A DNA stretch of 5,159 nucleotides, from contig DNXU01000630.1 in NCBI GenBank assembly GCA_003505715.1, positions 1-5,159 of the forward strand. Reading direction: 5' to 3'. Below, piece after piece: positions 905 to 5,124 of the stretch. The notes below the pieces were generated by a model, which saw nothing but the letters and a program-made list of their open reading frames with translations, had not been told where the DNA came from and searched no databases. Position numbers and translations under genes: made by a program. Numbering within the stretch: the stretch's first letter is position 1; each line of letters starts with the position of its first letter. The stretch is from Cyanobacteria bacterium UBA8803. Its GTDB lineage: Bacteria; Cyanobacteriota; Cyanobacteriia; Cyanobacteriales; Coleofasciculaceae.

Positions 905-938
905 TAAAAAAAACCCGGTTCCTTTAGGGTTCCGGGTT
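905..938 (-). terminator. Attenuator 2 terminator before the DAHP synthase gene
   Basis: On the minus strand AACCCGG (938-932) and CCGGGTT (918-912) form a perfect 7-bp stem. Its 13-base loop may contain two more GC pairs. The stem runs directly into a tract of eight T (913-906). There is no T tract in the plus direction, so it works leftward. It ends 34 bases before the DAHP synthase start, so it can only act as an attenuator for that gene. Its 5' arm is the target of the competing antiterminator formed with the end of leader peptide 2. Confidence 0.9.
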
Positions 939-981
939 GAGGTTGTAGCAACACTTTGGCACGACTTTACCTACCCAGAAC
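929..981 (-). promoter_or_regulatory. Attenuator 2 antiterminator pairing
   Basis: GUUCUGGGU (981-973), covering the last codons and the first stop base of leader peptide 2, is complementary to ACCCGGAAC (937-929). They give nine consecutive pairs with one G-U wobble. The second segment contains six of the seven bases of the terminator 5' arm, so this stem and the terminator exclude each other. A ribosome at the stop codon (973-971) would cover the first segment and let the terminator form. A ribosome stalled upstream leaves it free. The pairing is read from sequence; its use in vivo is inferred. Confidence 0.78.
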
Positions 982-1039
982 TGTCTGTGGGCCAAAAAAA
1001 GTAAAAGCCAAAAAACCAGTTGCTCAGATAGGTAGTCAC
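971..1039 (-). CDS. Aromatic leader peptide 2 (22 residues)
   Basis: This short ORF starts at GTG (1039-1037) and ends at TAG (973-971). Nine of its 22 residues are aromatic: Tyr4, then the core NWFFGFYFFWP at residues 7-17. An AGGAG Shine-Dalgarno (1050-1046) stands six bases before the start. The peptide has no recognisable domain. Its composition, the terminator 33 bases past its stop and the DAHP synthase gene beyond identify it as a sensing leader peptide, like the Phe and Trp leaders of enterobacteria. Shortage of charged tRNA-Phe, tRNA-Tyr or tRNA-Trp would stall the ribosome. Stalls at residues 14-16 (1000-992) best mask the 1:2 hairpin and favour the antiterminator. The ORF is too short for routine gene finders. 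An unrelated tiny membrane protein is the alternative, but it would not explain the complementary structures. Confidence 0.87.
   Translation of the reverse strand: MTTYLSNWFFGFYFFWPTDSSG
974..990 (-). promoter_or_regulatory. Attenuator 2 pause/protector hairpin (1:2)
   Basis: CAGA (987-984) pairs with UCUG (979-976) around a four-base loop. The stem is extended by CC (990-989) with GG (975-974) across one bulged A. This uses most of the segment needed for the antiterminator, so it plays the part of the 1:2 hairpin in classical amino-acid attenuators. Its 5' arm lies in the Pro17-Asp19 codons, directly after the aromatic run, where a ribosome stalled at Phe14, Phe15 or Trp16 would mask it. 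Confidence 0.6.
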
Positions 1040-1045
1040 GATTTG

Positions 1046-1050
1046 CTCCT
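1046..1050 (-). promoter_or_regulatory. Ribosome binding site of leader peptide 2
   Basis: AGGAG on the minus strand lies six bases before the GTG codon at 1039-1037. This is near-ideal spacing, and it selects GTG as the start of the aromatic leader ORF in a region where no ATG is available in that frame. Confidence 0.8.
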
Positions 1051-1065
1051 GAAAATTCTTGCTGT

Positions 1066-1102
1066 AAATAAAACAAAAGACCGCAGCGTTTGCTCTGCGG
1101 TC
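1066..1102 (-). terminator. Attenuator 1 terminator
   Basis: GACCGCAG (1102-1095) and CTGCGGTC (1086-1079) form a perfect 8-bp GC-rich stem with an eight-base loop. It is followed at once by TTTTGTTTTATTT (1078-1066) on the minus strand. The opposite direction has no T tract. It lies 28 bases past the stop of leader peptide 1 and 16 bases before the Shine-Dalgarno of leader peptide 2. A transcript that ends here would contain only the first leader peptide. The four outermost bases of its 5' arm are also used by the antiterminator at 1099-1146. Confidence 0.88.
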
Positions 1103-1146
1103 CACCGGGAGGTTCCATGGGGAACTGAATTCACCTCCGGTGAACC
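1099..1146 (-). promoter_or_regulatory. Attenuator 1 antiterminator stem-loop
   Basis: GGUUCACCGG (1146-1137), the codons near the end of leader peptide 1, pairs with CCGGUGGACC (1108-1099) over ten bases with one U-G wobble. It can be extended inward by about three pairs past a bulged C. Inside sits a smaller hairpin, GUUCC (1125-1121) with GGAAC (1116-1112). The 3' segment takes GACC (1102-1099) from the first arm of the terminator, leaving only GCAG/CUGC for that hairpin. The two structures therefore compete. A ribosome finishing at TGA (1133-1131) would cover the 5' segment and favour termination. Confidence 0.75.
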
Positions 1147-1187
1147 TTCCTAAACCAAAAGTAAAAGTAGTAGTTACTGGCGAACAT
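1131..1187 (-). CDS. Aromatic leader peptide 1 (18 residues)
   Basis: ATG (1187-1185) to TGA (1133-1131) encodes MFASNYYFYFWFRKVHRR. Residues 6-12 are seven aromatic residues in a row, and eight of 18 are aromatic in all. Composition and position mark it as an attenuation leader peptide that senses Tyr, Phe and Trp tRNA charging. It is followed by its own terminator (1066-1102), and its last codons form one arm of the antiterminator. No Shine-Dalgarno is visible before the ATG (preceding bases CCCCAGCT), which is common enough in cyanobacteria but lowers certainty about the start. Stalls at residues 6-10 (1172-1158) would leave the antiterminator arm free, while stalls at residues 11-12 would partly cover it. 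The last codons plus stop read GGAGGTGA, a perfect Shine-Dalgarno-like octamer. Confidence 0.82.
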   Translation of the reverse strand: MFASNYYFYFWFRKVHRR

Positions 1188-1781: not shown

Positions 1782-4700
1782 TTAGTATTTTTTCCAGGTA
1801 TACCCTAATAACCAAAAGAGAATTGTAGCAATCAGAGCGATCGCTACTGCTATGGGGGACTCGGAGACGGTAATAACAACGGCGATGCTGGCTGTGAGTA
1901 ATAACAGCACCTGAAGGAGTAAAACTAGGGGTCGTCGGCCAGGAAAATTGGGACTTTGAAAAGCAACGGGGCCTCTTGCTTGCAGCCACCAGTAGAAGAG
2001 TTGTACCGACTTATTGAAAAACTGGTAGGGTAAAAGATTGCGAAGTTTTGAGGCGCGGGGTTCGCCGAGGGTGGAGTTCACAATATCTCGCATTACCAGG
2101 GTAAAGCGGGTGGCGAGATTGGTTAGCACGATGCTGGGAATATCTTTTAGCACCGTCTCTTTCCCTACTCGGTAGCGATCGCGAAAGAACTCCTCTTTTT
2201 CTTGAGGCGATAATGTACCAACAGCGTTTTTGGCTAAGGCGGCGGCAGCTAGAGTGCTGACGCTTTTTTCAAAGTAGCCGGGAACTGGCTTGTAGGTGGG
2301 GGGTTCATCTCCAAGTTTGGCCAGCAGGCGTTCTACGTCAGCGGGGTCAGTTGGCTCAATGCGCTGTCGGTTCCATGCTAGTTGTTCGGCAATCTCATCT
2401 TCAATGACGTTCTGGATATCTGAGGTTAAAATTGAGCGATGTCCTTCTAGGACTAAATCGTTCAAAATAATTTCTAAGGCTGCCTCAGAAATTTGCAAAT
2501 GAGGATCGGCTAACATCCGTAAGTGGGAGTAGATTTTTTGGCGATCGCTCGGTTGGGCATCAGGGAAGCACTCTTGAATCAGTAATTCTAAGTATTCTTC
2601 TTGCGTACATCTGTTTTCCCGAGCTTGCCGTTCCAAGAAACGGGGGAAATTTTTCAGGGAAGTGCGAGTGACTAAGGCTTCAAAAATCCGGTTTAGTCCG
2701 TCTAATCGACCCCACAGCATATCATTAGAACGCCAGGACTTCTTAAAAAATCCGCCAAAAGCCCATAAGGTATCTCCTGCTAATTTCTCAGCGATTGTTT
2801 TCCCCTTTCCCAGCCCCATCTGAGCATCATCGGGACTGATCCGGATGGTATGAATCTGGTCTTTTTCCGAAAGAGAGGTTAAGTATTCAAAGGGGTAAAG
2901 CACGCGATCCAAGTTGGGGAAGCTTTGAAATCGAGTTAAGATATCTTCAGTCTGCTTCAGCCCACTGGCCTGAATCAATTTTTCTGAGGCTTGCTCGACG
3001 TAATATAAGATCGATGCGAATTCTGGGCCGTCGTTTTCTTTGTCAATATCCTGGAATTGCTTTGAAGACCAGATAGATTCTAGGTATGCTGGATCGTACT
3101 CAATCTGGCCAATTTTCTGCTTAAGCTGTTCAAAAATACTAGAAATTTGCTTTTGAGGTAACCATGCACTTTCTATTGATTTAAGGTGTTCGCCATCTAA
3201 CTCTAGAGGTTTGACTTGTAAGGGTAATTGTTTAAAAATGTCGGCGGGTAAGTATTCCAGCTGATTTTGTGCCAACCCTTGAGGGGAGAATTCTGCTAAC
3301 CCATCAGCATCAAAGAAGAAGCGGTGCACTCGGAGGAGGCGATCGTAGATTTGATGGCGTAACTGATTTAAGAGTTCGGGATGGGTAGGAGAGGGAGCGT
3401 ATTCTAGCAAGCTGTAGAATGATTGGCTAACTTGAGGATGGCTCAGGAGAGTATCTAAGGCGGCGCGGATGACCTCTAGTAGCTTAATTTGGCGATTTAG
3501 TTGGTTGACTAATAAGCGGAGCTTTTTATACTCTATGCTATCTGGTTCCTTCTCCAGTAACCCAAACAGCTTTTCAACGATATAAAAATGCTGTCGTAAG
3601 GCATAGTCTACGTCAAGATTGTGCAGCTGTTTGCTAGCCTTGTGTAGAATTGCTTCCTGTTGCTGCCTGTCACCCTCACCTGTGATGCGGTCGATCAGCA
3701 ATTGCGCGGTTTTTTCTAAAATTTCTTGCTTGTTTTGCTCGGAGTCGGTGCCATCGCCGAGATCCATCCGTAAAATGAGAGGCAGGATGCGATCGCGCAA
3801 GCCAATCAGGCGACTGCGCAGGTAAATGTCTTCGTCAATCTTAATCTCATTGGAAACACCACTGGCTGAGGGTTTGACAGCCTCTACATCACTCAGGAGA
3901 GACTTGTAGCGGCGGACTTTTTCATTTCGCTCTTTAATAGACTCCAGATCGTTGCTAATACTTTCATAAATTGGTAGACCGATTAAAGAGTCTTGCAGGA
4001 CTTCCAAGACATTGGGTTTCGGCATCGTATTAAACTTGACGCTGCCAGCAAAGCGATCGGGACTAGGATCGATATAAAATAACTGGCGATTAACCGGACG
4101 GTTGGCGGTGCGGAAATAAATCTCTTTAATGGTATAGCTGAAAGGTCGGTTATCTAACACCCCACCATCTACAAAATGCAAGCGATACCCCTCTTTAGGC
4201 GGTTTTTCTGGTAACTCGCGAGTTTCGAGAGATCCCCACTGGATGAGGCGTTTATCCAACTCATTAGCATCATCTTTGAGGCCAATAGTGACAACCGGAA
4301 AGGCAAGGGGAAAGCAAGAGGTAATCCGGCACAGCTTGGCCAAGGATTGATAAGTCTGTTCGGGAGTGCGAGTGGGATCGGCAGGATCGTCGTTGGGATT
4401 AAAGGGTTCCTTACGGCCTTGACGGTGCTTGATACTAAAAATAGCGCGGTGGTTTTTCACCTCAATGACGCATCCGGTATCGTCGAAAACTTTATAAATA
4501 CGTCCTAAAATATCGGTGCCAGTTACAAATAAATCTAATTCATTCGATTGAGATAGCCACTCCCCCTCTGGTGCGTTCTTAGGATTATCGGCCTTTCTAA
4601 AGGCATTAGCTAGCTCCTGTTGATAATATCCTGCCCCATCTAATAACGACTCAATGGTAGATTCCTTGGGTGAGGGGTGATGCATTAGTTCGCGAATACT

Positions 4701-5009
4701 GCCACTTTCGCGCCAAATTTGGCCGAATTCTTTAAAATCAACTACTTGTGTTGCGGTACTATTCGCTAAGGCGTAGCTCAGGAGTACGCCATTAATCCCG
4801 CCTGCGGAGGTGCCGGAGATAATATCGACGATAATATCGGCATCAGTGAGAGCCTTAATTAGTTTATAGATGCCCCGACCGCGTACAGCATTATAAAATT
4901 CGCGGCAAATCCCATTCATGTAAATGGCGAGAGAGACGCCACCATAAACCACCAGTCCTAGGCGATGTTCGCGACGAAATTCTGGTTTTTTTAGCGTTGG
5001 GGTAGACAT
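1782..5009 (-). CDS. Large patatin-like lipid hydrolase with C-terminal membrane helices
   Basis: The 1075-residue product has an N-terminal patatin domain (about 15-300), a Ser-Asp dyad lipid acyl hydrolase fold. The nucleophile elbow is GTSAGG (66-71, Ser68). The DGG motif is at 281-283 (Asp281), preceded by SCFPLAFPVV (231-240). The oxyanion segment YGGVSLAIYMNG (22-33) resembles the group called patatin-related proteins (TIGR03607/DUF3376 type). Residues 300-1000 are mostly charged and helical, with no domain I can name with certainty. Two hydrophobic segments near 1028-1048 and 1053-1071, followed by WKKY, look like a membrane hairpin anchor, so the enzyme probably sits on a membrane and acts on its lipids. 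ATG at 5009-5007 has GAGGA (5021-5017) seven bases upstream. The reading frame is intact and catalytic residues are present. Substrate and physiological role cannot be told from sequence; the neighbouring SUI1 gene gives no clear hint. Confidence 0.93.
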   Translation of the reverse strand: MSTPTLKKPEFRREHRLGLVVYGGVSLAIYMNGICREFYNAVRGRGIYKLIKALTDADIIVDIISGTSAGGINGVLLSYALANSTATQVVDFKEFGQIWRESGSIRELMHHPSPKESTIESLLDGAGYYQQELANAFRKADNPKNAPEGEWLSQSNELDLFVTGTDILGRIYKVFDDTGCVIEVKNHRAIFSIKHRQGRKEPFNPNDDPADPTRTPEQTYQSLAKLCRITSCFPLAFPVVTIGLKDDANELDKRLIQWGSLETRELPEKPPKEGYRLHFVDGGVLDNRPFSYTIKEIYFRTANRPVNRQLFYIDPSPDRFAGSVKFNTMPKPNVLEVLQDSLIGLPIYESISNDLESIKERNEKVRRYKSLLSDVEAVKPSASGVSNEIKIDEDIYLRSRLIGLRDRILPLILRMDLGDGTDSEQNKQEILEKTAQLLIDRITGEGDRQQQEAILHKASKQLHNLDVDYALRQHFYIVEKLFGLLEKEPDSIEYKKLRLLVNQLNRQIKLLEVIRAALDTLLSHPQVSQSFYSLLEYAPSPTHPELLNQLRHQIYDRLLRVHRFFFDADGLAEFSPQGLAQNQLEYLPADIFKQLPLQVKPLELDGEHLKSIESAWLPQKQISSIFEQLKQKIGQIEYDPAYLESIWSSKQFQDIDKENDGPEFASILYYVEQASEKLIQASGLKQTEDILTRFQSFPNLDRVLYPFEYLTSLSEKDQIHTIRISPDDAQMGLGKGKTIAEKLAGDTLWAFGGFFKKSWRSNDMLWGRLDGLNRIFEALVTRTSLKNFPRFLERQARENRCTQEEYLELLIQECFPDAQPSDRQKIYSHLRMLADPHLQISEAALEIILNDLVLEGHRSILTSDIQNVIEDEIAEQLAWNRQRIEPTDPADVERLLAKLGDEPPTYKPVPGYFEKSVSTLAAAALAKNAVGTLSPQEKEEFFRDRYRVGKETVLKDIPSIVLTNLATRFTLVMRDIVNSTLGEPRASKLRNLLPYQFFNKSVQLFYWWLQARGPVAFQSPNFPGRRPLVLLLQVLLLLTASIAVVITVSESPIAVAIALIATILFWLLGYTWKKY

Positions 5010-5045
5010 GGCGTTTTCCTCGTCTTCATTACAGGAAAATGTTAT

Positions 5046-5124
5046 GGGCGGGTTTTGATACCAGCATTATTGGTTATAGGGCAATCTTATCGGCTAAACC
5101 CGCCCCTACCACATCGCCCCTACC
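5046..5124. repeat. MITE-like inverted-repeat element, copy 2, with a short direct repeat
   Basis: GGGCGGGTTT (5046-5055) and AAACCCGCCC (5096-5105) are a perfect 10-bp inverted repeat about 60 bases across. The element shares GGGCGGGTTTTG and TCGGCTAA with copy 1 at 1270-1361. The right end CGCCCCTACC (5101-5110) is repeated directly at 5115-5124. It lies directly upstream of the patatin gene. On the minus strand it contains TTGCCC (5084-5079) and TATCAA (5060-5055) with an 18-base gap, a possible but weak promoter that would start transcription inside or just past the element. Confidence 0.6.

Follow-up and report, generated by a model that had tools for sequence, protein, structure and literature searches.

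What are two short open reading frames (ORFs) rich in aromatic codons, each followed by a U-tailed hairpin, doing in series ahead of a single gene for DAHP synthase, which opens the aromatic amino-acid pathway, in a cyanobacterium? Leader-peptide attenuation is textbook knowledge for the proteobacteria. We addressed the question for a 5,159-nucleotide stretch of contig DNXU01000630.1 of Cyanobacteria bacterium UBA8803 (hereafter the window) and propose, with a probability that we put at roughly 0.85, that the two ORFs belong to two complete leader-peptide units in series, forming a two-stage transcription attenuator that reads all three aromatic aminoacyl-tRNAs.

Layout of the locus

On the minus strand of the window, a promoter-like site is followed in series by leader ORF 1 (LP1), hairpin 1, leader ORF 2 (LP2), hairpin 2 and the DAHP synthase gene (Table 1). 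ORF translations put both aromatic ORFs exactly where an earlier, sequence-only reading of this DNA had placed them, and the enzyme named there was identified again by profile matches above cut-off for both TIGR01361 (355.9 bits) and NF006421 (395.7 bits). The two U-tailed hairpins in series were likewise recovered, the first by a terminator consensus scan (1103-1078, then TTTTGTTTT) and the second by folding. The extent of the element, previously given as 905-1187, proved too short, as it reaches further, to the promoter-like TTGACT/TATAGT. Read from its GTG start, which has AGGAG 6-7 nt ahead of it, LP2 translates as VTTYLSNWFFGFYFFWPTDSSG. The fold of terminator 2 comprises a 7-bp stem, a 2x2 internal loop and two further pairs (C929/C928 with G921/G922), then eight T.

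Table 1. Features of the leader region and the gene behind it, in order along the minus strand of the window
Feature	Positions	Strand	Description	Pairing	Basis
Promoter-like site	1264-1235	-	TTGACT-18-TATAGT, TG before second hexamer (extended -10)		Consensus scan
LP1, leader ORF 1	1187-1131	-	MFASNYYFYFWFRKVHRR, 18 codons, aromatic block YYFYFWF		
Segment A, unit 1	1146-1137	-	GGTTCACCGG (VHR codons of LP1 and preceding base)	1108-1099	
Segment B, unit 1	1108-1099	-	CCGGTGGACC; final four bases also in terminator 1		
Terminator 1 (predicted)	1102-1070	-	Stem GACCGCAG / CTGCGGTC, U-rich tail	1102-1095 with 1086-1079	
Helix P0, 5' strand	1040-1029	-	At LP2 start	973-960, just past LP2 stop	
LP2, leader ORF 2	1039-971	-	(M)TTYLSNWFFGFYFFWPTDSSG, 22 codons, block WFFGFYFFW		
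Segment A, unit 2	982-973	-	AGTTCTGGGT (SSG codons and first stop base)	937-929	
Terminator 2 (predicted)	938-906	-	AACCCGG/CCGGGTT; T run 913-906	938-932 with 918-912	Fold
Segment B, unit 2	937-929	-	ACCCGGAAC, common to antiterminator 2 and terminator 2		
DAHP synthase gene	870-19	-	Short TIGR01361 / NF006421 type (3-deoxy-7-phosphoheptulonate synthase)		Profile match

The terminator scan was uninformative by itself, since the 6 terminator-like sites that it listed in the window barely exceed the 5.2 expected, and hairpin 2 was absent from its list, probably because two A.A mismatches break the stem. The fold of the whole region was no more stable than that of shuffled sequences (z −0.75), so that the evidence lies in the alternative pairings and not in overall stability. 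Rfam, with its riboswitches and T-boxes, gave zero matches within 800-1450 at E values up to 5.

The minus-strand neighbours in the window encode a SUI1/YciH-type translation factor (1390-1749; NF005669) and a patatin-like protein of 1075 residues (1782-5009; TIGR03607). By eye, stretches resembling CCCGCCCCTAC / GTAGGGGCGGG recur at 1274-1360 and 5045-5115, both intergenic, and are perhaps a dispersed repeat.

Distribution across the class

Comparable loci were chosen by the enzyme alone and gathered in two overlapping sets (L083 and L028, for example, lie on contigs of equal length). One holds the best 80 of 315 scan matches; the other holds 21 relatives' loci whose gene is of the same type and at least 73% identical, from 57 genomes including that of the window, after exclusion of a gene piece without a start (L104, in G011). 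Enough upstream sequence was present at 76 of the 80 loci, and 74 of these 76 carried both leaders, the remaining two (L071, L080) having LP2 only. Both leaders were also found at 19 of the 21 loci, with LP1 only at L103 and LP2 only at L096. With the window included, a leader was present at 98 loci, or 72 after removal of near-duplicates; LP1 was found in 71 of the 72, LP2 likewise in 71, and both in 70.

Covariance models built from the near-relative loci, R1 for LP2 and R2 for LP1, were run on 388 genomes of the class and matched 119 and 140 genomes, respectively. The 113 genomes matched by both span 14 families, and in every one of them LP1 and LP2 stand in that order on one strand, at a median offset of 158. 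The DAHP synthase gene (E up to 1e-100) was present in 142 of the 388 genomes; both models matched 110 of these and at least one matched 140, which makes the pair a ready RNA family. The two gene-bearing genomes missed by the models, G361 and G392, belong to the same genus, and on reading both leader ORFs are present in G392, and in G361 LP2 is clear and LP1 poorer. Among the 246 genomes that lack the gene at this threshold, 6 gave leader-model matches. G167 has a broken gene remnant after LP1, G112, G160 and G304, below the gene threshold, have the gene or a piece of it near a contig edge, in G178 the contig ends at the match, and the match in G341, with no such gene nearby, is probably false.

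Stretches were fetched for 140 of the 146 genomes matched by either model, the other six (G000, G008, G020, G023, G046 and G051) being already among the loci. The enzyme gene, or its remnant in G167, lay directly downstream in 138 of the 140, with G341 and G178 as exceptions, and an automatic rule recovered both leader ORFs in 120 of the 138. Of the 18 that failed that rule, G167 has the gene remnant, and G185 and G213 have both leaders on reading. The ORF scan sees LP2 alone in G058, G082, G109, G258 and G350, yet R2 matches there, and LP1 alone in G337 and G419, yet R1 matches there. In G366 the contig ends there, G387 and G273 have LP2 only, and five f43 genomes (G066, G099, G112, G133 and G144) have LP1 only by the scan.

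Judged by its sequence, the arrangement is old. Chance is rejected as its origin, since two blocks in series stand before the same gene in genome after genome; in the window's own genome, the 12-mer class for FYFW occurred 28 times in 8.07 Mb, against 19 for a reversed control. In that genome (G000) each leader model matches once, and no aromatic-block ORF lies upstream of its second DAHP synthase gene (L002) or of trpE (L313). The same held for four of the seven second-type DAHP synthase genes of relatives (L105-L111); L107, L108 and L110 each have one unrelated-looking ORF, 430-1258 nt ahead of the match.

Relatives with a single leader, either LP1 or LP2 (L071, L080, L103 and the f43 loci L174, L175, L207, L212 and L215), form a natural series on what a second stage adds, and their existence means that this stage is dispensable in places. 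At L172, in G167, LP1 stands directly ahead of a truncated, broken DAHP synthase remnant, and neither the second half of terminator 1 nor LP2 is seen; the element seems to decay once the gene is lost.

The promoter motif accompanies the leaders. In all 70 two-leader loci, TTGAC occurs no more than 130 nt ahead of the LP1 start region (median 74 nt), with TGnTA at the right distance downstream in 69 of them; it also stands upstream of LP1 in 115 of 119 class loci. It is rare in the LP1-LP2 spacer (3/70) and between LP2 and the gene (2/70), so one transcript should carry both units. This position of the conserved motif disfavours a transcript start downstream of 971, the contrary case named in the sequence-only reading. 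A looser two-hexamer score upstream was barely above that of shuffles (8.96 versus 8.26). As for ribosome entry, a Shine-Dalgarno-like four-base motif was found by a loose test in the 35 nt ahead of LP2 in 55 of 71 loci, and such a motif in the 21 nt ahead of the usual LP1 start in 0 of 71.

Competing pairings and ribosome position

We propose that each unit would work with three segments: A, the last codons of the ORF; B, further on; and C, the 3' half of the terminator, with A and C competing for B. With aromatic amino acids in ample supply, the leading ribosome would reach the stop codon and bury A, B would pair with C and the polymerase would terminate. When any of the three is short, the ribosome would stall in the aromatic block, and the free A would pair with B immediately upon its synthesis, allowing readthrough. 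The polymerase would have to clear both stages, so that leak-through would multiply, and a shortage would relieve both.

In unit 1, the final codons of LP1 (GGTTCACCGGG in most loci) pair with CCCGGTGAACC, and AACC of the B strand also forms the base of terminator 1 (AACCGCAG/CTGCGGTT), these four bases being the only overlap between A:B and the terminator. Over 71 rows, 95.8% of the cells of antiterminator 1 (A:B) are paired and 5 of its 11 pairs show compensatory changes, and 0 of 500 shuffles reached either figure. These changes alter the LP1 tail from VHR to VRQ, VRP or VRL, which argues that in the tail the RNA, not the peptide, is constrained; pN/pS is 2.54 for the tail versus 0.24 for the aromatic block. 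A functional small protein was considered for the tail and is unlikely, given that its residues shift to keep the RNA pairing. For terminator 1 taken with the small neighbour hairpin inside segment A, 3 of 15 pairs co-vary, a count that 107 of 500 shuffles reached, although none of the 500 matched its share of paired cells or its covariation score. At one locus (L099, in G051) LP1 stops early, at a TAA right before segment A (WYP, then stop), and A:B is still possible, so that the locus is a natural experiment on the distance that the ribosome has to travel.

In unit 2, the partner of the SSG codons (AGTTCCGGGT) is ACCCGGAACT, a strand that doubles as the left arm of terminator 2. Paired cells amount to 94.6% for antiterminator 2 and 93.1% for terminator 2 (71 rows), and for both helices the covariation scores and paired cells exceed all 500 shuffles. 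Both-sided change was confined to 2 of 10 pairs in each, which was equalled by 223 of 500 shuffles for antiterminator 2 and 162 of 500 for terminator 2, and co-varying pairs are few because the sequence hardly varies. At the base of the terminator 2 stem, both-sided change was seen in 22 of 71 rows. A lack of conserved aromatic codons or hairpins in relatives, another contrary case named in the sequence-only reading, was not what we saw: the codons and both hairpins are kept, with compensatory changes that are clear in unit 1 and thinner in unit 2.

Own A and B segments also paired better than swapped partners in the 120 class loci, both in unit 1 (−21.60 versus −18.13, sd 0.20; 0/200) and in unit 2 (−17.10 versus −15.09, sd 0.16; 0/200), a signal to which shared ancestry can add; the class stretches were found via the near-relative models and are not wholly independent of those relatives.

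To place the ribosome in these models, we folded the RNA beyond it with the A site on each codon in turn, taking the edge of the footprint, as a rule of thumb, to lie 12 nt from the first base of the A-site codon. In 71-row means, A:B came to 0.00 for A-site positions from the stop codon itself to five codons ahead of it in unit 1, and to four codons ahead in unit 2. Before the 3' half of the terminator is made, A:B was 0.89-0.98 in unit 1 from the Trp codon, eight codons ahead of the stop, upstream, and 0.94-0.95 in unit 2 from the last Trp codon, seven codons ahead of the stop, upstream. The switch codon of LP1 in the class set coincides with the last aromatic codon at 75 of 120 loci and lies at most one codon away at 113; that of LP2 lies within one codon of the last aromatic at 83 of 120, typically one codon downstream, and 99% of block codons fall within the open zone (120 class loci). 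In the folding models, then, a stall on the aromatic codons frees A and a ribosome at the stop buries it. For full-length window RNA at equilibrium, the terminator wins at every stall position in unit 1 (A:B 0.10-0.52, terminator 0.86-0.92) and is favoured at most stalls in unit 2 (0.61-0.89, with 0.15 at the last Trp). The model therefore depends on A:B forming first and then persisting.

A further helix, P0, could close LP2 to later ribosomes or hold segment A of unit 2 back after release. A first test on all 71 rows gave a weak result (14.31 versus 13.88, sd 0.22). Own strands outdid swapped ones in 23 hand-picked non-Nostoc loci (−10.84 versus −8.77; 0/300 as good) and in the 120 class loci (−11.23 versus −8.84; 0/200 as good). 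A control from the middle of LP2 also slightly beat its swapped partners (−8.04 versus −7.57, sd 0.18; 0/200), so shared ancestry may account for some of the P0 signal. For LP1 a comparable helix was rejected, own partners being no better than swapped ones (22/200 as low).

These comparisons bear on the possibility that one unit only works as an attenuator, the other being a relic or a fixed setter of the basal level. Loci with a single leader unit and the two mismatches in terminator 2 of the window would fit such an arrangement, but we consider it unlikely. The mismatched terminator 2 recurs in related genera, which suggests tuning, both aromatic blocks are under similar purifying selection (pN/pS 0.26 for LP2, close to that of LP1), own A:B beats swapped in both units, and the order is kept in all 113 genomes matched by both models.

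Codon choice, the signal and known systems

Codon use in the leaders is distinctive. Phe codons UUU and UUC number 402 and 7 in the leader blocks versus 97 and 257 in the downstream genes of the same loci, and in the class set, whose counts overlap in part with those of the near relatives, 826 and 151 over the scanned leader stretches versus 233 and 312 in the genes. Tyr codons UAU and UAC number 157 and 155 in the blocks versus 103 and 245 in the genes. The codon itself, and not just the residue, thus seems to be under selection, which would fit a signal carried by decoding speed; alternatively, the UUU bias could reflect a requirement for unpaired, U-rich RNA. Phe, Tyr and Trp are all represented in the scanned stretch in 124 of 128 LP1 and 122 of 129 LP2 of the class set. 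The presence of codons for all three in each leader of the window supports the earlier proposal of a two-stage attenuator for the three end products, in which charged tRNA would be the signal.

Some ribosomes are stalled by the nascent chain, as in TnaC, an arrest peptide that answers a free amino acid. If LP1 and LP2 were arrest peptides of this kind, perhaps also answering a free amino acid, one would understand why LP2 is almost fixed as WFYGFYFWPR in 71 near relatives and why the core FYFW is common to both leaders there; FYGFYFWP, moreover, recalls the artificial arrest motif FXXYXIWPP as given in the available text of its report (PMC11669330). The Trp-Pro-Pro end of that motif is not found, LP2 having WP and then R in most near relatives. 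Across the class, however, WP occurs in just 23 of 129 LP2 (15 of 118 outside the window's own order) and FYFW in 43 of 129, aromatic density being kept (e.g. NWYYGFFYTTGSGLW and SWQFTFYFFTPPPGR), and the UUU bias points to decoding rather than to the peptide, leaving peptide-driven arrest improbable.

That the short ORFs act by another route, such as translation control, mRNA decay or Rho access, with U-tailed hairpins that are not terminators, has a parallel in the tandem ORFs of Salmonella mgtCBR, which according to the available text work without intrinsic terminators (PMC3641672), but it is very improbable here, where a G+C-rich stem and U run stand behind each ORF, sharing a strand with the antiterminator and conserved in the alignments, and where the gene start lies past both hairpins.

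The two-stage attenuator accordingly is the reading that we prefer. As in classical attenuators, both short ORFs repeat end-product codons (Phe, Tyr and Trp), a predicted U-tailed terminator, conserved among relatives, stands between ORF and gene, and pair conservation and folding models indicate a rival pairing that is exclusive with the terminator and would be governed by the ribosome. Going by sequence evidence, the element is real, old and well built, and its function is strongly predicted. We hold it probable, with clearly less assurance than the attenuator itself, that it descends from a class-wide ancestral two-stage sensor of the same signals, with near-exclusive UUU tuning and with P0 closing LP2 to late ribosomes. 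If so, this would be the first biosynthetic gene known with two same-signal leader attenuators, a built-in repression multiplier. A deeply conserved tandem form at the entry to the shikimate pathway would demonstrate the age of the mechanism in cyanobacteria, would allow the contribution of a second identical sensor to the response range to be tested cleanly, and would give cyanobacterial metabolic engineers a specific control element to study.

In the literature searched, mostly open-licence, we came across no biosynthetic gene described with two attenuators for the same signal, and in open-licence literature we did not find leader-peptide attenuation described in cyanobacteria. The novelty of the tandem arrangement is lowered by a known precedent. 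The sequence-only reading had cited no tandem leader-peptide attenuators in a cyanobacterium; in Salmonella mgtCBR, two leader ORFs in series, mgtM and mgtP, are each an attenuator of one transcript that controls a virulence protein and an Mg transporter, and what stands is that, in the available text, they read two different signals, ATP and proline (PMC3641672). By its sequence the locus described here is not of the mgtCBR type, as its two ORFs have codons for one shared set of three amino acids, and a U-tailed hairpin follows each.

The nearest parallel in gene and signal is the aroR-aroF leader of Corynebacterium glutamicum, reportedly the subject of Neshat et al. in 2014. There an aromatic leader peptide, Phe-Tyr-Phe, also precedes a DAHP synthase gene, and stalling under Phe limitation raises expression, according to the text available (PMC11802643, PMC4046766). 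That system, as far as the same text goes, has one leader with three aromatics named, in an actinobacterium, whereas here there are two leaders with longer blocks that include Trp, in cyanobacteria. A candidate upstream ORF before Acholeplasma aroF, uORFC-13-1, likewise codes for Phe, in a U run, ahead of a terminator (PMC8632094, available text). As given in that text it is single, predicted only and from another phylum, in contrast to the two units here. ErmB induction, with two leader peptides, is reportedly a translational system. The E. coli trpL and pheL leaders (mentioned in PMC11802643) are single attenuators of four-segment design. They share with the present units the placing of end-product control codons before a terminator with a rival pairing, but here the units are two, and in the model three segments would suffice in each, with A inside the 3' end of the ORF.
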